A stretch of DNA of 49,588 bases. Origin: a virus. The translations under genes and the position numbers were made by a program. Under the pieces are notes generated by a model. It searched no databases, was not told the DNA's origin, and was given only the letters and a program-made list of their open reading frames with translations. Location of the stretch: positions 1 to 49,588 of IMG/VR virus record IMGVR_UViG_3300032893_000072; one strand, 5' to 3'. Positions 37,213-49,254 of the stretch are shown piece by piece; position 1 is the stretch's first letter, and every line of letters starts with the position of its first letter.

Positions 37213-38925
37213 GTGCGCAAGGACAAGAATCAGGCCATCCCGGACCTCCTCGAAGGATACGACCCGTCGAATCCGGAAAGCCTCGCCCTCGTTGAATCGA
37301 ACATCGCCAACGAGTTCAAACTGGCCCTGCTCCGCATGAACCCCACACAGGAACGGTTTATCCGCATCAAGAACGCCCGTGGCCGTCTTCCCAGAACCCG
37401 ACTATTCGAGGCGGGAAATCAATCCGGCAAGACGACGATAGGGGTAGCTGAAGACCTTGCCCACGCCATGGGGTTCCGTCCGTGGCTGAGACAGACCGAC
37501 CCCGACTACCGCATCCCCATCCGGGTTCCCAATCAGGGCATTGTAGGTTGCGAGGTAGCCGGTCAAACCTTGGCCCAGAACATCGAGCCGAAGTTCATGG
37601 AGTTCCTTACCCGTTTCTGCGGTGCCCAGAAGGAACGCTACTCGGACGGGTCGATCAAGAGCCTGTATCTCGCTAACGACCTCTTTGGAAGACCCTGTGG
37701 CTCTACCATCCACTTCCGATCCTATGTCCAGCCCGCCGAGAGCTTTGAAGGCATTCTTGCCGACTGGATTCACTGGGACGAGCCTCCTCCGCGAGCCATC
37801 CTGAACGCCGCAGAGCGCGGCAAGATGAAGACCAACGCTCCCTCATGGCTGACCATGACGCCCCTGAAGGAGCCCTATATCTACGACCTGTTCACCCTCC
37901 ATGCCTTCAATAATGGCGGAGAGGATCAGGAGATTGCCATCTTCCGCTGCCCTACATGGGACAACTGCCAGGACTGGTGCCGGGACTGCGACGAGACGAT
38001 TGAGGAAAACAAGCCCGAGAACCTCGCCATCGACCAGATACGGCCTGTGGACAAGTGCCCGAAGTGCGGCAGGGTGATGGGGTTCATGCCCCGCGAAGGG
38101 ATCGACAACTACTTGAAGAAGATTACCGATCAGGATGAAAGGGAAGCCCGTGAAGAAGGAAAATGGAAGCACCTCAGCGGGCTGGTCTATAAGGAACTGG
38201 ACAGGAGCATCCATCAATATAAGGACTTTGACATCCCCTCCGACTGGATGCGTATTGAAATTCTGGACCCGCACGACGCAAGACCTTCCCGATGGTTATT
38301 TGGTGCGGTTTCTCCCGAAGAAATCGTAATCAATGACAAGCCCGCAAACCGCATCTATTGGTACACCTACCTCCTGCCCACCGGAAACATTCAGGAGATC
38401 GCTCGCAAGGTGAAGATCAGGCGGGCGGAGATGGGTTACAAGGAACCTGCCATGGTCATCCTCGATGCGAAGTTCGGGTCAAAGACCACCAAGACCGGAC
38501 TCGAAGAGACAAGCTGGGAAGAGGAACTCGGCAAGGCGGGGATCAAAAACATCGTCCTCTCTCACTCCGCTCCCGGCGACGTGGCTCTTGGTCACAAGCG
38601 GGTCAAGGAATATCTGGCTCCGCAGTATTCCTCTACGAGAAACGGAAGTTTCCCCGGAATGATGTTTGCCGCAGAGGGATGCAAGGGGGATCGAGGCCCA
38701 TGGCAGGACATGACCAACTACCAGTGGCAGGAGGGAACCGACAAGCCTGAAGAAGCCTACAAGGACATGTGCGACTGCGTGAGGTATGCGGCTCTGGAGC
38801 AGCCAGTGTATCAAAGACCGATGCCGGAGATGGATGCGGAACTGGCACGGATCATCATGGAAAGAGAAAATCTCCAGCGCAATCATGTCAATGAGTTGTA
38901 TTATGGCTTGCAGGTAAAGACTTAA
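37213..38925 (+). CDS. Large terminase subunit (packaging ATPase/nuclease)
   Basis: 570 residues from a GTG following AGGATG. Walker A is AGNQSGKTT at 67-75 and Walker B WIHWDE near 185-190, followed by a coupling region (PSWLTMTPLKEPYIYDLF). A cysteine-rich insertion (CPTWDNCQDWCRDCDE then DKCPKCGRVMGF) at about 246-300 may be a zinc finger, as in some podoviral terminases. The C-terminal half has the RNase-H-like nuclease pattern (VILDAKFGSKTT, later acidic residues). It pumps DNA into the prohead through the portal and cuts the concatemer. Confidence 0.92.
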   Translation: MRKDKNQAIPDLLEGYDPSNPESLALVESNIANEFKLALLRMNPTQERFIRIKNARGRLPRTRLFEAGNQSGKTTIGVAEDLAHAMGFRPWLRQTDPDYRIPIRVPNQGIVGCEVAGQTLAQNIEPKFMEFLTRFCGAQKERYSDGSIKSLYLANDLFGRPCGSTIHFRSYVQPAESFEGILADWIHWDEPPPRAILNAAERGKMKTNAPSWLTMTPLKEPYIYDLFTLHAFNNGGEDQEIAIFRCPTWDNCQDWCRDCDETIEENKPENLAIDQIRPVDKCPKCGRVMGFMPREGIDNYLKKITDQDEREAREEGKWKHLSGLVYKELDRSIHQYKDFDIPSDWMRIEILDPHDARPSRWLFGAVSPEEIVINDKPANRIYWYTYLLPTGNIQEIARKVKIRRAEMGYKEPAMVILDAKFGSKTTKTGLEETSWEEELGKAGIKNIVLSHSAPGDVALGHKRVKEYLAPQYSSTRNGSFPGMMFAAEGCKGDRGPWQDMTNYQWQEGTDKPEEAYKDMCDCVRYAALEQPVYQRPMPEMDAELARIIMERENLQRNHVNELYYGLQVKT

Positions 38926-41870: not shown

Positions 41871-42589
41871 TGCCTGAAGCCGTATTGGAACAACCTCAAA
41901 CGACGCCGGAATCCCTGGGATGGAGAGCCGGTCTGCCTGACGACTTAAAACAGAACGAAGCCTTTATCTCATTCAAGACGGTTGGAGAACTTGGCAAAGA
42001 CTATCTTGGACTGAAGGCGAAGGCTACCGAACTCGAAAAGAAGCTAGGCGACTATGTTCCCAAACTGCCGGATAACGCGAGTGATGAGGATCGAAACCTC
42101 TACTACGACGCTTTAGGTCGACCTAAACAGCCCAGCGAATACGAGTTTGACGGAGAAGACAAGAACGCTCCCGAGTGGACAGGTTTCTGGAAGAACCAGT
42201 TTCATTCTCTCGGTCTGACCAAGACTCAGGCTAAACAGTTGTCCGGTCTGTGGAATGGACAGATTCAGAAGATGGTCGATGCACACAACGCAGCCATCAA
42301 GACAGAGATGACGCAGGCCGAACAGAAGCTGAGAAGCGAGATGGGCGACAAGTTCGATACCAACGTGGAACTGGCCAAGCGTATGACCAACAAGTATCTG
42401 GGTTCGGACTTCGACAAGACGTTTGCCAACCTGAACGGCGAGAGCCGGTTTGGGGTGGTAAAACTGCTCTTGAAGCTGGCCGAGCTTACCGGAGAAGATA
42501 GGTCGCCGCAAGCAGGATCGAGTCTGCCGCAAGGGAAGCAGGTAAGCTTCATTGCCTACGACAAAAGTCCTGCGCCTCCAAAACGATAA
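41870..42589 (+). CDS. Scaffolding (capsid assembly) protein
   Basis: 239 residues directly before the major capsid gene. The N-terminal half contains WRAGLPDDLKQNEAFISFKT then VGELGKDYLGLKAKATELEK, a common opening of podoviral scaffolds. The second half is helical and charged (KTEMTQAEQKLRSEMGDKFD), with a helix bundle end and the tail AYDKSPAPPKR. In related phages the basic C-terminus binds coat subunits and the protein leaves before DNA fills the head. No protease gene is seen, so exit is probably intact. Confidence 0.85.
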   Translation: MPEAVLEQPQTTPESLGWRAGLPDDLKQNEAFISFKTVGELGKDYLGLKAKATELEKKLGDYVPKLPDNASDEDRNLYYDALGRPKQPSEYEFDGEDKNAPEWTGFWKNQFHSLGLTKTQAKQLSGLWNGQIQKMVDAHNAAIKTEMTQAEQKLRSEMGDKFDTNVELAKRMTNKYLGSDFDKTFANLNGESRFGVVKLLLKLAELTGEDRSPQAGSSLPQGKQVSFIAYDKSPAPPKR

Positions 42590-42601
42590 GGGAGAATCGC
42601 T

Positions 42602-43654
42602 ATGGCAACGGATGTATCACAACTTGGATATTCCACCTTCAATGACATCGTGGCGAACTACTCGTCCACTGATGCGGGGGCAAGATTCGTTCTGCCCAAG
42701 CGCGTTCTTGACCGCATGACACCGCTGGTCAGAATGCTTCCACTTAAAGCCTCAAACAACATCATGTCAAACATCGCCGTGCGCAATGACTCTCTTCCTA
42801 TCGCCTCGACACGGCGCTGGAATGAGGGCATCAAGGCGACGGCGGCACACAACACTCCGCTCAATGATCCCATCATGCTTCTGGAGGATTACGGAGAGGT
42901 TGACAAGAAACTCTGGAGCATTCAGAACGATCCGAACGCATGGCGAGCGGACCAGGACATGAGCCATATCGAGGGCCTGTTCCAGCTGGTTGAGTCCATC
43001 CTGTTTTATGGCAACCAGGGACTGAACCCCGGCGTCATCAACGGACTGACTACGCGGTTCAACAACCTTGAATCCTATCCGAACGGAGACCAGACATGGC
43101 AACCGAACGTGTGGAACGGCGGAGCCAGTTCAGGCAACACGACCTCGGCGTGGATGATTGAGTTTGGGGATGATTCAATTTATGGGATCTATCCTCCCAA
43201 CTCACCGGCAGGTCTGAGGGTTGAAGACCTTGGCGAGTCTACCAAGGAACTGGCCAGCGGGACCGCTGCGGTAGGCGCGAACTATCTGTATCAGGTTCTC
43301 CGCACTCACTTTGAGTGGATGCTGGGAATTCAGATTCCCGATGAGCGCGCGGTGCAGCGTATCTGCAACATCAATCCTGCGGTGTTGTCCAGCAACAACT
43401 TCGATGAGAACATCTTCATTGAGGCTAAAAACTGGCTTCCGCGAGCGGGTGAAGCACCGGGTACAGTGATCTTCGTGAATCGCGCCTTGAAGACCCAGAT
43501 CGACATTCGCGCGGTCTCGCAGAAGATCAATACCTATTTCACTCCACCCAGCGACAACTCGATGGACGTGTTCGGGAAGGCAGTCACCAAGTTCCAGAAC
43601 ATCCCCATCTATGTTGCTGAAAAGCTTCTGTCAACCGAAACCGTTGTGAGCTAA
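42602..43654 (+). CDS. Major capsid protein (HK97 fold, T7/BPP-1-like)
   Basis: 350 residues after AGGGAGAA. Order in the operon (portal, scaffold, this) and length fit the major coat protein of T7- and BPP-1-like phages. The N-terminal arm (FNDIVANYSSTDAGARFVLP) has no obvious cleaved delta domain. The body has MLPLKASNNIMSNIAVRNDS and a long spine-helix candidate. The C-terminal part (TVIFVNRALKTQIDIRAVSQ, then DVFGKAVTKFQNIPIYVAEK) matches the A-domain pattern of this class. About 415 copies would be expected for a T=7 head. Confidence 0.9.
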   Translation: MATDVSQLGYSTFNDIVANYSSTDAGARFVLPKRVLDRMTPLVRMLPLKASNNIMSNIAVRNDSLPIASTRRWNEGIKATAAHNTPLNDPIMLLEDYGEVDKKLWSIQNDPNAWRADQDMSHIEGLFQLVESILFYGNQGLNPGVINGLTTRFNNLESYPNGDQTWQPNVWNGGASSGNTTSAWMIEFGDDSIYGIYPPNSPAGLRVEDLGESTKELASGTAAVGANYLYQVLRTHFEWMLGIQIPDERAVQRICNINPAVLSSNNFDENIFIEAKNWLPRAGEAPGTVIFVNRALKTQIDIRAVSQKINTYFTPPSDNSMDVFGKAVTKFQNIPIYVAEKLLSTETVVS

Positions 43655-43666
43655 AGGAGAAACGAC

Positions 43667-44422
43667 ATGCCAGTATCTGATGCATTACTTTACCTCCACG
43701 GCTCCGGATCTTCAGCGTATGGACCTGTAACCTCAACCGCGAATGCTGCGTCCAGCGGTACAATCTCCGGAACCACGTTAACCGTCACCACTCTGACCAC
43801 GGGGCAGGTCCAGGTTGGCCAGCTTATTACCGGGGTTGGCGTCACGGCGGGAACCTACATCACCGCTCTCGGAAACGGGATCGGTCTGGGCGCGGGCACA
43901 ACCTACACGGTAAACATCTCGCAGAGCGTTGGGCCGATTGCCATGACCTTCAGCCCCAATACTCTCGGGGATGCTCTTACCGGCAGTGCGCAGTATTCGA
44001 ATCTCGAACTCGACTTCGGCGCACCTTCCTCGGGGATCGTCTATCCGTATCTTCCCCAATTCCCATCGGGATACGAGAAGGCTTACACCTTCCCTCCCGA
44101 AGCTCTGGGGACAGGTGGGGTGGAGATGGGTATTCATCTGCTCATCACCGCTCCGATGTTGACGGCAGCGACCACCTCGATTGCGTTTACCGTCGCCACT
44201 TCTTCGGCTACGGCAGCACTCTACAACACCGCAGCCAACGTCATCGGCTCGCGCACTCTGACTGCCGCGCAGTTGGCTGTTCAAGGAGCGCACTACTTCA
44301 TTCCCGTCAACCCCGGTTCGGTGCTTGAATTCCTGCGCTGGTATGCGGCCAACGCGGGAGGGGCAGCGACAACCGGCTATCTGGTGTCGTGGTATGGACC
44401 ACGCACTGGTGGAGAACAATAA
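43667..44422 (+). CDS. Capsid cement protein (Bbp16-like) with an inserted repeat module
   Basis: 251 residues after AAAGGAG. The outer parts (MPVSDALLYLHGSGSSAYGP, then ALTGSAQYSNLELDFGAPSS, GTGGVEMGIHLLITAPMLTA, and VLEFLRWYAANAGGAATTGY) follow the cement protein of BPP-1-like phages, which stabilises the coat. Between about residues 22 and 100 lies a Thr/Gly-rich unit, SGTTLTVTTLTTGQVQVGQL then ITGVGVTAGTYITALG, a module seen in other phage surface proteins. A similar unit lies in the tail tubular protein B gene. The insertion would display an extra domain on the capsid. Confidence 0.75.
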   Translation: MPVSDALLYLHGSGSSAYGPVTSTANAASSGTISGTTLTVTTLTTGQVQVGQLITGVGVTAGTYITALGNGIGLGAGTTYTVNISQSVGPIAMTFSPNTLGDALTGSAQYSNLELDFGAPSSGIVYPYLPQFPSGYEKAYTFPPEALGTGGVEMGIHLLITAPMLTAATTSIAFTVATSSATAALYNTAANVIGSRTLTAAQLAVQGAHYFIPVNPGSVLEFLRWYAANAGGAATTGYLVSWYGPRTGGEQ

Positions 44423-44946
44423 TGCTGGTGAAGGCACTTTGCACGGCTCGCGCGTGGGATAACGAAACTGCGCGCGAGTTTCTACCCGGCTTGGAGTACG
44501 AGATTCCTTCAGACTCCAAGCTGGCTGATCTTACTGTTGTTCCTGTTGCTTATGACGAGCAGGGAAGGTCTGTCCGATATTACCGGGACAGGGACGGAAA
44601 CATGAAGACGATTCCCGTTCCCAAGCCTGCGTACGTATTCCAGTTTGATCGGAACATTACTCGAACCAATGAAGGCGTAGTTGTTGAGAAGGACTATTCC
44701 TGCAAGGAAGAAGCCTGTCCGGGTTTCGGGATGAAATTCAAGACGCTCAATGCCCTTGGGAACCATTCGAACAAGTTTCACAAGGACTTGAAGCTCATCA
44801 AGGACGATTCTCCAGATGAGGAGCCAGAACTCAAATTTGCCTGTGACAAGTGCGAGAAACGGTTCAAGGATCGTCGCGGATTGGTGGGTCATCTGAGATG
44901 GTCGCACAAAAATGAAGAGGTAACGGATGCAGTAACAGTGACTTAG
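44422..44946 (+). CDS. Protein with two C2H2 zinc fingers in the virion operon
   Basis: 174 residues; the ATG at 44422 overlaps the cement stop (TAATG). The N-terminal 90 residues are alpha/beta (LEYEIPSDSKLADLTVVPVA). Then come two C2H2 fingers: Cys94, Cys99, His115, His120 (YSCKEEACPGFGMKFKTLNA...) and Cys141, Cys144, His157, His162 (FACDKCEKRFKDRRGLVGHL...). The second is indistinguishable from a eukaryotic TFIIIA-type finger (C-x2-C-x12-H-x4-H). An acidic linker (DDSPDEEPEL) joins them. Such fingers are rare in bacteria and their viruses, and here the gene sits between capsid and tail genes. It may be a neck or packaged DNA-binding protein. Confidence 0.8.
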   Translation: MLVKALCTARAWDNETAREFLPGLEYEIPSDSKLADLTVVPVAYDEQGRSVRYYRDRDGNMKTIPVPKPAYVFQFDRNITRTNEGVVVEKDYSCKEEACPGFGMKFKTLNALGNHSNKFHKDLKLIKDDSPDEEPELKFACDKCEKRFKDRRGLVGHLRWSHKNEEVTDAVTVT

Positions 44947-44955
44947 GGGGCGTAG

Positions 44956-45708
44956 GTGAACTATTCTCAGACGGGTATATCGAACCTCGCCCTAGGTCGC
45001 ATCGGTGCTCGCGGCCAGATCACCAGCATCAATGAGAACTCTCCCAACGCAGTCAAGGTCTTGGCTGTATGGGACATGATCTTTCAGGAAGTTCTCTCCG
45101 AGCGCGACTGGAAGTTTGCCAAGACCCGCGTCCAGTTGCAGTTGAGCGATGTTGTCCCTCTGTACTCTTATCGCTACGCATGGGCCTTGCCCGACGATCT
45201 TCTGCGCTTCGTTCGGCCCCTCAAAAGACCGGAGCGGAGAGTTCTCGGATTCTGGTGGGGATGGGGTCCGGAAGGAACCGGATGGTATCGCCGGGAAGAC
45301 CCTCCTTTCTGGCCATACGACACCGATTACAAGGTGGAGACGCTGACTCAGGGGTGGCTTGCTCCTTTGTCCGATCCTCCCGTCCCCTACCCTCCCCCAT
45401 TTCCCGGTGGACGATATGCGATCACGAACTACGGCGGGTGGCGCGGCCCAGCCATGATTACCTACATCCAGTTGATCTCCGACTATACCCAGTTGATGCC
45501 GGGATTTGTGAACTGCCTTGCGAACCGTCTGGCAATGGAGTTGTCTATCGGGATCACGGAGGACAAGCAGAAGTACGAGCAGATGCAGCAGGCGTATCGC
45601 GACAGCCTTAATTCGGCTGAAGCGCAGAATGAATGCCTTGATTTCTCAGAGGACGAAGACGGGTCAACCTCCTGGCAGGATGCCGGACGTGTCGTTAGGT
45701 TATGGTAA
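44956..45708 (+). CDS. Tail tubular protein A (T7 gp11-type)
   Basis: 250 residues from a GTG after AGGGGG. ISNLALGRIGARGQITSINE then VLAVWDMIFQEVLSERDWKF and YRYAWALPDDLLRFVRPLKR are typical gp11-type gatekeepers that ring the portal. The C-terminus has FVNCLANRLAMELSIGITED. An aromatic/proline-rich loop (VLGFWWGWGPEGTGWYRRED) is unusual and may be a lineage insertion. It connects portal and nozzle. Confidence 0.9.
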   Translation: MNYSQTGISNLALGRIGARGQITSINENSPNAVKVLAVWDMIFQEVLSERDWKFAKTRVQLQLSDVVPLYSYRYAWALPDDLLRFVRPLKRPERRVLGFWWGWGPEGTGWYRREDPPFWPYDTDYKVETLTQGWLAPLSDPPVPYPPPFPGGRYAITNYGGWRGPAMITYIQLISDYTQLMPGFVNCLANRLAMELSIGITEDKQKYEQMQQAYRDSLNSAEAQNECLDFSEDEDGSTSWQDAGRVVRLW

Positions 45709-45711
45709 GCT

Positions 45712-48700
45712 ATGCCGCCCAAGGTCTATACAGTACGGCAGGCATTCAATGCGGGTGAAGTCAGTGAACTGGTCGCCTTCCGGGATGATGTATCGAAGTA
45801 TGCTTCTGCCTGCCTGACCCTTGAGAATGCCGTCCCCCTGGTAGAGGGCGGAGCCAAGAAGATGCCAGGTTCCTACTTTGCCGGGGCAACGGCATTGGGC
45901 GGGTCGATGTTTACCGGGTCGATCACATCCACAACCCTGACCGTGACCGATGTAAATTACGGAATTCTGCGGGCCGGTCAGAGTCTGTTTGGCGACGGAA
46001 TCATTCCCGGTGTCATTCTTATGTCGGGAGCGAGCGGCGGGGCTGGAGGCGGAACCAATGTTTCGATGCCGGGTGGCGATGTTCAGGTCGACAGTTCTGT
46101 CGGAACCAACTCACTTGTGCTGTCCGGATTGCCTTCCGTCACAGTGACTGGGGGTCTGGCCAACGTCTCGGTTCCTATCAGCATCTCTGGCTTGTTCCAG
46201 AATCCGCGAGGAAGCATCAAGGCATCCTATTCCTATTCCATCGATGCCGGAATTACCTACACAGAGTTCTACTCTTCGCTCAATCCGGATCAGGTGGATA
46301 CGGTAACGAATTTCACCATTACAGGAGTCACGAATCTAGCCAGTTTTCGGCTAAAGATCGCTGTCAGCGCAACGGCCATCGGCAATCCTCCCAACGCCAT
46401 TGATGCTTCGTGCGGAGTCATCACTGTCAACTGCCCATCAGGAACGGTGACTCTTCCCTACACCGGAACAGGGGGAACCGGCACCTATCTAATCTCGACT
46501 CCGCTGACCGTACCGAGTGAGCAGATGCAGACCGCATCGAGCGGGAAAAGCCGTCTTGCTCCATTTCAGTTCTCTACGGAACAGGGAGCTATTCTGGAGT
46601 TTTCCTCCGGAGTGATTCGTGTCTGGGAAGGCGCGAAGCAGGGAGACTGGTCGCTTGGATTGGCTTTGCAGGTTCCCGATCAGGCCAACTTCGATCCAGC
46701 CACTTCCTATGTAGCGAATAATGTGGCTCTCGTTGGTCCAACCTACACCAGTTGCTTTTCTCCCACGGCTGGCGTCATCGATTTATCCAAGGGAGTACTT
46801 TACATTTCTTCTCCTTACGGAACAACCAACGCGGCAGGCGCGTTCCTGGGTGTTGCTGTCAACAGCATTGATACGATGTATGTCACCAAGGCTGGTGCAT
46901 CCCCGAATGAGGGGTTTGTGATTGTTTTGGCCAATACAACACCTGCCAATAATGCGGCGAACCTGATCCAAGCGGCTGTGCGCGCTCTTGGTTCTCTCAA
47001 TGCCGGAACCTCCAACTACATCGATCTGACCAAATGGACGGTGACTCCGGATTCGGTTTATTACGCTACTCCCTGGATACTCTCTACAGGGAATAGTCCT
47101 TTGCAGAACTCAAACTGGATTGCTCAGTGCGTAGCCAACAACCAGAATGACGAGTTTCCTATCGCCATTGGAGCATCCGGAATGCTCGCGTGGAACGCTG
47201 CCTACTGGCAGCAATTCGATGAGAGCACAGAACCTCCCATTGAGGTTGTTACGCCCTATGCTGAGAGCGATCTCTTCGACCTGGACCTGAGCACCCAGAG
47301 CGCCGATGTTCTTTGGATCTTTCATCCTAAGTATCCTCCGGCGGTTCTGGAACGACAGAGCGCGAACTCATGGGTTTACTCACTCTCGCTTCCCGGACAG
47401 CAACCCGGAGAGTCCGCCTATCGTGGAACGCTCGATGTCGTCAAGACGGGATACTCGGCGCTGGGACAGTCGATTACCGCAATCACTCAGGCGAACCCTT
47501 GCGTGGTGACGGTAGCGGCGACAGGGAATGCCTTTGTTTCCGGAAGCCGCGTCTACATGAACGAAATCGCAGGCATGGTCGAACTCAATCAAGGCGAGTT
47601 CATCGTCGCCAACCCAAGCTATGGGGCTGGAACGTTTTCCTTCTCTCTGCAAGACCCGAACACTGGCTCGGCTGTCGATTCCACAGGGTATCTGAAATAT
47701 GTGAGTGGAGGTTTTGCCGTACAGGTGATGCCACTGTTTGCCGGGACAGGGGATTATCCGGCCTGCGGAACGTTGTACCAGGAACGTCTCTGCGTTGGCG
47801 GCAGCGAAAACAACCCCACCCAGATCAACGGAAGCGTTCAGGACGACTATCCGGATTTCATATGCGATCCGAACGCGGAAGACTTTGCCATTCAGTTCAC
47901 CCTAGTTTCGAACAAACTGGACCAGATTCTGAACATGATTGGTACGCCCAACTCGCTAGTCATTGGAACCTCTGGTGGCGTCTGGGTCATGACTGGTTCG
48001 AATGGCCAGTCCTTGAGTCAGGTGAATGTGACCGCCGCCAAGCAGACGACGCTTGGAGTGAGTAATCTTCAGCCGCAACTCGTGGGGTCTTCAGCTATCT
48101 TCGTCTCGCGCTCCACGCGCATCGTGCAGTTTCTGATCTTCAATTTCGTATCCAATCAGTGGGATAACTATGATTTGACCCGCCTGAACCGGGTGATCAC
48201 GTTAGGTCCGACCGAAGCCACTTCAGGGATTGCCCAGACCGCATTCCAGATGGAGCCATACCCGATTTACTGGTGCGCTCGAAAGGACGGACAGTTGATC
48301 GGCCTTGTCTTTAATCAGCAGGATAAGGTATACGCATGGTTCAGGGTCAACATGCTTCCCGGCAAGATCGAATCTCTTGCCGTCATCAGCGGAAAGAATC
48401 AGGAAGACCAGTTGGCCGTAGTGGTTAACCGTCAGACCAATGGCGTGACCCAGAGGTTTGTCGAATACTTCATGCCTCACGAGTTGTTCTCTCAAATATC
48501 TAACTCCTTCTTTGTCAACGCTGGACAGAGGTTGCAGTTGCTTCCCGCCGCTCAGATTACCGGGATCAATAACGGCACTCCGTGCGTCGTGCAGTCTCCC
48601 GGACACGGGTTTTCGAATGGCATGTACGTAAACATCACAGGCGTTCAGGGAATGACGGAGATCAATCAGGACGCAACTCAGGCATATTCGATCAGCGGGG

Positions 48701-49254
48701 TGACGACCAACAGCTATGTTCTTGACGGGATGGATACAACGTCCTTTGGCGTGTATACCGGGGGAGGGACAGGGAGGCAGGTTACGAACACCTTAACCGG
48801 GCTTGGTTACCTTATAGGCCAGCAGATTACCGCGATTGGGGACAGCACGTACATCCAGCCGCCAACACCTGTGACCTCTGATACAGTCACGCTTCCCTAC
48901 TATGCCAACCTGATTGTGGTTGGGATTCCTTATCAGATGACTTTGCGTCCGACCAACCCCATCCTGAGTTCGCAGGGATCTACCACTCGTGGGATGAGGC
49001 AGAAGCTGGAGCGTATGACCATCTCGCTCTATCAGGCCATGGGAGGAAACGTGGGGACTGACCTAAATCACATGTATCCGATCAATTATGGCCCGGGAGC
49101 CATGGCGCAGCAGCCTCAGATGAGCACCATCGAGTTTACCTGGGATCTGGATTGCGACTGGAACGACGACTCTCAAATTTACATCACGCAGAGCGATCCT
49201 CTTCCGTTTACGGTAAGGGGGCTGGTAGCGAGGATGAGTGTGAATCAGGACTGA
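45712..49254 (+). CDS. Tail tubular protein B (T7 gp12-type nozzle), enlarged
   Basis: 1180 residues against about 800 in T7. The opening (VYTVRQAFNAGEVSELVAFR then LTLENAVPLVEGGAKKMPGS) and the core (TLYQERLCVGGSENNPTQIN, then LNMIGTPNSLVIGTSGGVWV) are typical of gp12-type nozzles. Extra modules explain the length: a Thr/Gly unit near 65-110 (FTGSITSTTLTVTDVNYGIL), and two beta modules near 586-670 (ITQANPCVVTVAATGNAFVS) and 947-1026 (GTPCVVQSPGHGFSNGMYVN), each with the x-x-G-M-x-E-[LI]-N-Q core that is frequent in this family. It forms the tail tip to which fibres bind. The stop overlaps the GNAT-like gene start. Confidence 0.9.
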   Translation: MPPKVYTVRQAFNAGEVSELVAFRDDVSKYASACLTLENAVPLVEGGAKKMPGSYFAGATALGGSMFTGSITSTTLTVTDVNYGILRAGQSLFGDGIIPGVILMSGASGGAGGGTNVSMPGGDVQVDSSVGTNSLVLSGLPSVTVTGGLANVSVPISISGLFQNPRGSIKASYSYSIDAGITYTEFYSSLNPDQVDTVTNFTITGVTNLASFRLKIAVSATAIGNPPNAIDASCGVITVNCPSGTVTLPYTGTGGTGTYLISTPLTVPSEQMQTASSGKSRLAPFQFSTEQGAILEFSSGVIRVWEGAKQGDWSLGLALQVPDQANFDPATSYVANNVALVGPTYTSCFSPTAGVIDLSKGVLYISSPYGTTNAAGAFLGVAVNSIDTMYVTKAGASPNEGFVIVLANTTPANNAANLIQAAVRALGSLNAGTSNYIDLTKWTVTPDSVYYATPWILSTGNSPLQNSNWIAQCVANNQNDEFPIAIGASGMLAWNAAYWQQFDESTEPPIEVVTPYAESDLFDLDLSTQSADVLWIFHPKYPPAVLERQSANSWVYSLSLPGQQPGESAYRGTLDVVKTGYSALGQSITAITQANPCVVTVAATGNAFVSGSRVYMNEIAGMVELNQGEFIVANPSYGAGTFSFSLQDPNTGSAVDSTGYLKYVSGGFAVQVMPLFAGTGDYPACGTLYQERLCVGGSENNPTQINGSVQDDYPDFICDPNAEDFAIQFTLVSNKLDQILNMIGTPNSLVIGTSGGVWVMTGSNGQSLSQVNVTAAKQTTLGVSNLQPQLVGSSAIFVSRSTRIVQFLIFNFVSNQWDNYDLTRLNRVITLGPTEATSGIAQTAFQMEPYPIYWCARKDGQLIGLVFNQQDKVYAWFRVNMLPGKIESLAVISGKNQEDQLAVVVNRQTNGVTQRFVEYFMPHELFSQISNSFFVNAGQRLQLLPAAQITGINNGTPCVVQSPGHGFSNGMYVNITGVQGMTEINQDATQAYSISGVTTNSYVLDGMDTTSFGVYTGGGTGRQVTNTLTGLGYLIGQQITAIGDSTYIQPPTPVTSDTVTLPYYANLIVVGIPYQMTLRPTNPILSSQGSTTRGMRQKLERMTISLYQAMGGNVGTDLNHMYPINYGPGAMAQQPQMSTIEFTWDLDCDWNDDSQIYITQSDPLPFTVRGLVARMSVNQD

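Follow-up and report, generated by a model that had tools for sequence, protein, structure and literature searches.

Proteins with several classical C2H2 zinc fingers have, to our knowledge, rarely been described outside eukaryotes and their viruses, and a gene that appears to encode one between the capsid and tail genes of a phage raises the questions of whether the fingers are real, of what kind they are, and what such a protein might do at this place. The gene lies in the window (the whole 49,588-nucleotide viral stretch that was analysed), in a run of structural genes in the order major capsid protein, cement, zinc-finger gene and tail tubular A:

42602..43654, + strand: major capsid protein (MCP), Pfam GP7, with relatives in BcepC6B, BPP-1 and phiV10
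43667..44422, + strand: cement/decoration-type protein, its C-terminal part profile-related to Bbp16 of BPP-1 and its N-terminal part an extra repeat module
44422..44946 including the stop codon, + strand: zinc-finger gene, 174 aa (P0001), with homologues in the same slot
44956..45708, + strand: tail protein of the tail tubular protein A type (phrog_394)

An earlier note on this DNA had put the gene after the cement gene and before that of the portal-proximal tail protein in the operon, and profiles of the neighbouring genes agree. The zinc-finger ATG at 44422 overlaps the cement stop codon (TAATG) and has a GGAG at 44411–44414, 7 nt on its 5' side, and tail tubular A starts shortly after the gene ends. 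A search of 42500–45800 gave no terminator-like site, and it is this together with the TAATG overlap that places the gene in the structural operon; the two promoter-like sites in the same interval equal the shuffled mean. Homologue starts agree with the start at 44422, and a longer GTG start at 44389 was rejected as it disagrees with them. By hhalign (E 4.8e-5, probability 68), the C-terminal part of the cement protein is related to the Bbp16 group, and searching for this part in phages gave no match. Residues ~23–67 of its N-terminal part also match phage tail-fibre profiles, and they match segments in loci L147–L152 (see below) to which the tail protein of gene 45712 (45712–49254) is matched as well; this repeat module is common to cement and tail proteins and is absent from some cement homologues.

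The product can be divided into the following parts, the folds of the domains being predicted:

44422..44655, + strand: N-terminal small beta-barrel domain, residues 1–78, with a loop insertion at about residues 40–70 in the window member (alignment, AlphaFold)
44701..44781, + strand: zinc finger 1, residues 94–120, C-x4-C-x15-H-x4-H (alignment, AlphaFold pLDDT 90–93)
44782..44841, + strand: linker of 20 residues, net charge -3, without TGEKP-type sequence, the fastest-changing part (median pN/pS 0.77)
44842..44907, + strand: zinc finger 2, residues 141–162, C-x2-C-x12-H-x4-H (alignment, Pfam, AlphaFold pLDDT 95)

Both finger patterns are present as the earlier note had described them, with C94, C99, H115 and H120 in finger 1 and C141, C144, H157 and H162 in finger 2, and the only Cys or His outside these ligands is C7. 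When P0001 was shuffled 20,000 times the finger pattern was absent in 19,910 shuffles, occurred once in 90 and occurred twice in none, and among the stop-to-stop frames of at least 40 codons in the window the strict motif C-x2,4-C-x12,13-H-x3,5-H picks out only the zinc-finger gene. Finger 2 of P0001 matches Pfam zf-C2H2 with an E-value of 4.4e-4 and 21 bits, below the curated cut-off of 25.2, and across the family 32 of 45 members match PF00096 at E<=0.1 (best 1e-8) and 24 of 45 match PF13912 zf-C2H2_6 (best 8.2e-14). Searched against the PDB, the family profile matches eukaryotic or designed DNA-binding finger proteins, including Aart (E 1.6e-18), CTCF and PRDM9; searches of PHROGs and NCBIfam profiles gave weak or Zn-ribbon-like matches only.

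Relatives were gathered from IMG/VR with the capsid protein (67 loci) and tail tubular A (66 loci) as anchors, many contigs being common to both. Cement and tail genes lie in order in 109 loci, and the gene in the slot between them was recognised in 89 (N-terminal profile, E<=1e-3), the other 20 comprising 14 with a more distant slot gene and six without one. A scan with the finger-family profile added six further loci (L147–L152) of the same gene order, and the four of these that were read (L147, L149, L151 and L152) encode two fingers. P0001 alone found no match in IMG/VR, P0001 and the L026 protein found none among 50,697 phage records by tblastn with cut-offs of E<=1 and E<=10, and two genome-contig scans with the capsid protein gave no match, so no host or prophage was found.

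The search of other head operons that the earlier note had proposed thus yielded 50 distinct full-length homologues at the cement–X–tail tubular A locus, and a regular expression finds two fingers in 26 of them, one in 13 and none in 11, consistent with the expectation of more than one finger per protein. Composition shuffles of the same 50 (300 rounds) gave on average 0.7 proteins with a finger, never more than 3, and none with two fingers. In 24 aligned two-finger members, whose mean column identity is 36%, C94, C99, H115, C141, C144 and H157 are invariant; H120 is kept in at least 90%, the L018 and L020 proteins lacking it with a Cys at or near that place, and the H162 position is His, or Cys in some members. 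The earlier note had reasoned that homologues at this locus without the Cys/His ligands would make the pattern accidental. Such homologues do exist (the 11 of 50), but they lack whole finger modules and no half-eroded finger is seen; beyond residue 40, a CxnC pair outside a complete finger occurs only in L056 (an odd CxxCx9H variant), indicating that modules are lost whole rather than eroded. The pattern is therefore not an accident of composition, a reading to which only the single-protein Pfam scores below the curated cut-off lend anything, and whose negligible probability follows from the homologue counts (at least one finger in 39 of 50, against no more than 3 of 50 in shuffles) and the invariant ligands. 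As judged from these alignments, the fingers are real and under selection.

Rates of change are in keeping with this. Median identity is 0.20 in the linker and 0.37–0.50 across the slot-gene domains, compared with 0.74 and 0.70 for MCP and tail tubular A, respectively. Median pN/pS values are 0.48 for the barrel, 0.49 for finger 1 and 0.54 for finger 2, with 0.29 for MCP and 0.31 for tail tubular A, in a rate test that is weak because synonymous sites are near saturation. Every domain of the slot gene evolves more quickly than MCP or tail tubular A but is under purifying selection, and an arms race as the source of finger gain is unsupported, pN/pS being below 1 even if pS is near saturation.

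The fingers had been called classical rather than Ros/MucR-like, and the spacing and the small modelled fold bear this out. In Ros the spacer is 9 residues long, the fold includes an extra helix and the hydrophobic core comprises 15 residues (PMC9779718). The P0001 fingers share with Ros/MucR a beta-beta-alpha core with two Cys and two His, zinc-bound in Ros/MucR, but their spacers are 15 and 12 residues in the window and mostly 12 in the family, and the modelled fold is small and classical, with neither the 9-residue spacer nor a larger fold with an extra helix. Finger 2 conforms exactly to the classical C-x2,4-C-x12-H-x3,5-H with its conserved Phe and Leu, and P0001 resembles classical C2H2 fingers (PF00096, PF13912; UBI-D4, CTCF) in ligand spacing, Phe/Leu core and predicted beta-beta-alpha fold. 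Finger 1 of the window, whose loop is three residues longer than the classical one, is a long-loop form (C-x4-C-x15-H) common to L038, most relatives having C-x2,4-C-x12-H. The family departs from classical C2H2 proteins in its attached phage barrel domain and in its linkers, since 18–42 residues (median 30) separate the last His from the next Cys in 26 of 26 two-finger members and none has the short TGEKP-like linkers of a tandem (TFIIIA-type) DNA-reading array. These linkers have a median net charge of -1 in the family, and the two window fingers carry net charges of +2 and +4 and are flanked by acidic stretches.

The finger helices differ in what they might read. In the family, finger 1 has Thr or Ser at helix position -1, Asn at 2, Glu or Ala at 3, an invariant Gly at 5 and Thr at 6, and we take its LGxH helix, in which the Gly is the invariant one, to resemble the QALGGH helix of the long-linker EPF-type fingers of plants, which bind DNA. 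In finger 2 a hydrophobic helix (Asn-Leu-Tyr-Ala-Leu-Arg-Val-His) is conserved in most members and the base-contact positions are mostly Asn, Tyr, Ala and Val. Helix residues of this kind make sequence recognition by finger 2 unlikely; finger 1 might be capable of it.

Structure prediction of the protein alone, which the earlier note had suggested, gives two confident beta-beta-alpha fingers (pLDDT 90–95) and a beta-rich N-terminal domain with the appearance of a small barrel (AlphaFold, P0001 with the family alignment, mean pLDDT 84, pTM 0.43); the barrel domain alone, in its L007 version, is predicted with a pLDDT of 88. The ubi-d4 finger 3iuf aligns with the model over 31 residues (rmsd 2.0, Z 3.6). 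Foldseek found no match for the whole model in the PDB or BFVD at E<=0.001 and none for the barrel model either, and the best VIA-align Z for the barrel is 3.6, giving no clear structural relative.

Beyond the barrel, the relatives have tails with two, one or no fingers, or tails that are Lys-rich or Rho_N-like. Eight tail classes placed on a tree of 45 capsid proteins require 13 changes compared with a shuffled mean of 22, a count to which recombination between capsid and slot genes would contribute likewise. The most direct case is that of L119, with two fingers, and L097 and L098, with none, whose N-terminal domains are closely similar and whose C-terminal ends are related: both fingers are removed cleanly and in frame in the latter two contigs, which come from different samples, encode the same protein and, as read from the alignment, differ in the N-terminal part by apparently synonymous third-position changes only. 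The L059 tail is Rho_N-like (E 0.0012, below the Pfam cut-off); those of L034, L108, L113 and L115 are Lys-rich, that of L108 with a sub-threshold NUMOD3 match (E 0.034); those of L036, L085 and L103 are acidic; and L040 and L098 have no tail. The slot gene itself is absent in six loci, of which L012, L079, L117 and L122 have about 70–105 nt between the cement and tail genes and L118 and L120 have an unrelated 82-aa ORF in the slot; no copy was found elsewhere in these six records, which are fragments, so that a copy elsewhere is possible. The finger tail thus looks like a module that a phage can carry or do without, and not like a constant component of the particle, and the finger loss in L097/L098 together with the six loci without the gene makes an indispensable neck part unlikely.

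Other features of the slot were noted in passing. Free-standing genes that are HNH-endonuclease-like by sequence motif lie directly 3' of the finger gene in three lineages (L004:2444–3025, L026:9256–9777 and L104:4388–4984), so the slot seems to be a place of homing-endonuclease insertion. Extra genes are present between the cement and finger genes in some relatives (L018:1634–2722, L021:3081–4112), and a hairpin-like repeat rich in G+C, with a short T run after it, is found where the finger gene is missing (L117:4931–5000, L079:1755–1825) and beside the unrelated ORF (L118:4600–4680).

A small gene also follows the cement gene in BcepC6B, BPP-1, phiV10, Acinetobacter phage 4316, Mel-JY33, Shamal, ctEw122 and vir555, the last two being metagenome-assembled. 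The slot proteins of these relatives start somewhat like P0001, have variable tails and are finger-less. Among them, Bbp15, BcepC6B gp10, phiV10p12 (similar to epsilon15p09 according to its record) and UKM17093.1 of Acinetobacter phage 4316 share with P0001 the place after the cement gene, a similar start (VxAxxxGFxGxxRxPGxxF) and the variable tail, but lack fingers, and the N-terminal profiles of the finger family and of the isolated-relative slot proteins are weakly related (hhalign E 0.0032, probability 10). The putative relation to Bbp15-type proteins is thus a lead suggested by position and style. A similar two-part plan, with a small N-terminal domain and a nucleic-acid-type tail, may be shared by phage proteins with Rho_N/HeH-type tails, such as Mu-like FluMu HI1506; L059 of the slot family has a Rho_N-like tail, and these proteins differ from P0001 in having no fingers. 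Cryo-EM work on BPP-1 assigns the roles of the two capsid proteins to Bbp16 and Bbp17, with Bbp15 unmentioned in the available portion of that paper (PMC3863775). In searches of the open-licence PMC literature we recognised no paper on zinc fingers in a phage head or neck gene, or on the function of Bbp15 or BcepC6B gp10.

Our preferred reading, to which we give a probability of roughly 40%, is that the product of the gene is an accessory protein, produced together with the structural proteins of an uncultured podovirus of the BPP-1/epsilon15 type, with the barrel as a dock and the fingers as a nucleic-acid-binding tail. The small barrel, as the constant part, would probably dock on a phage structural or assembly partner, as the position of the gene suggests, and the protein may be present in the virion; the flexible C-terminal tail with its two separate, putatively zinc-binding fingers would be the variable part, most likely binding nucleic acid, be it host DNA or the phage's own DNA during packaging or ejection, with each finger working on its own instead of forming part of a continuous base-reading array. 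Nucleic-acid binding is suggested by ligands that stay invariant in divergent two-finger members while the linker drifts, by the predicted beta-beta-alpha units, the PDB profile matches to DNA-binding fingers, the plant-like LGxH helix of finger 1 and the net positive charge, and by the resemblance of alternative tails to known nucleic-acid-binding modules (Rho_N and NUMOD3, both below Pfam cut-offs). The poor base-contact residues of finger 2 speak against it, and the acidic and missing tails imply that a shared nucleic-acid role is not universal. The lack of a clear structural relative of the barrel counts against the docking part, and the lack of the gene in some relatives against the reading as a whole.

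It is also conceivable, if somewhat less likely, that the fingers are protein-binding modules gripping either a phage protein (portal, scaffold or terminase) or one from the host, such as a defence factor or a transcription factor, with the tail swapped as the partner changes. Isolated fingers on long linkers, the conserved hydrophobic helix of finger 2, the faster divergence of the slot gene than of its neighbours and the absence of gene and module in some relatives would all fit, whereas pN/pS well below 1 in both fingers gives no sign of an arms race, as far as so nearly saturated a test can tell, and the alternative tails look like nucleic-acid binders. That the protein is a component of the virion neck or head, in which zinc would mainly keep a small fold stable next to the portal or capsid, is improbable: where both neighbours are visible, the gene does lie between those for cement and tail tubular A, and isolated relatives keep a small slot protein, but the fingers are deleted in L097/L098, the gene is missing in six (fragmentary) loci and the assigned capsid proteins of BPP-1 are Bbp16 and Bbp17, with Bbp15 absent from the available text. 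The suggestion in the earlier note of a neck component touching DNA accordingly found no support, given the deletable fingers, the six loci without the gene and the finger-less isolated relatives. Least probable among the functional readings, and a distinctly long shot, is a DNA-binding protein that is made late, stays out of the virion and regulates transcription of the phage or the host, a reading for which the classical DNA-binding type of the fingers and the accessory distribution could be cited, but which sits poorly with a gene inside the structural operon, with the lack of tandem-array linkers and with Pfam searches in which no regulator-type partner domain was recognised.

Returning to the barrel-and-fingers adaptor, a broader and doubtful extension is that the slot protein serves podovirus heads as an adaptor with an exchangeable tail, in which the barrel docks on the particle and a plug-in tail (two fingers, one finger, Rho_N-like or Lys-rich) is swapped per phage to suit DNA or host, so that eukaryote-type fingers would be in or on the particle and be delivered with the genome. 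A phage family with clear orthologues and with natural deletions and swaps at one locus makes finger function directly testable, and would offer a first way into the small, poorly characterised cement–tail slot protein of BPP-1/epsilon15-type phages. Elsewhere in the window, the terminase large subunit (37213–38925) has Cys pairs at about residues 253–288 with a weak HypA match, a possible zinc knuckle.
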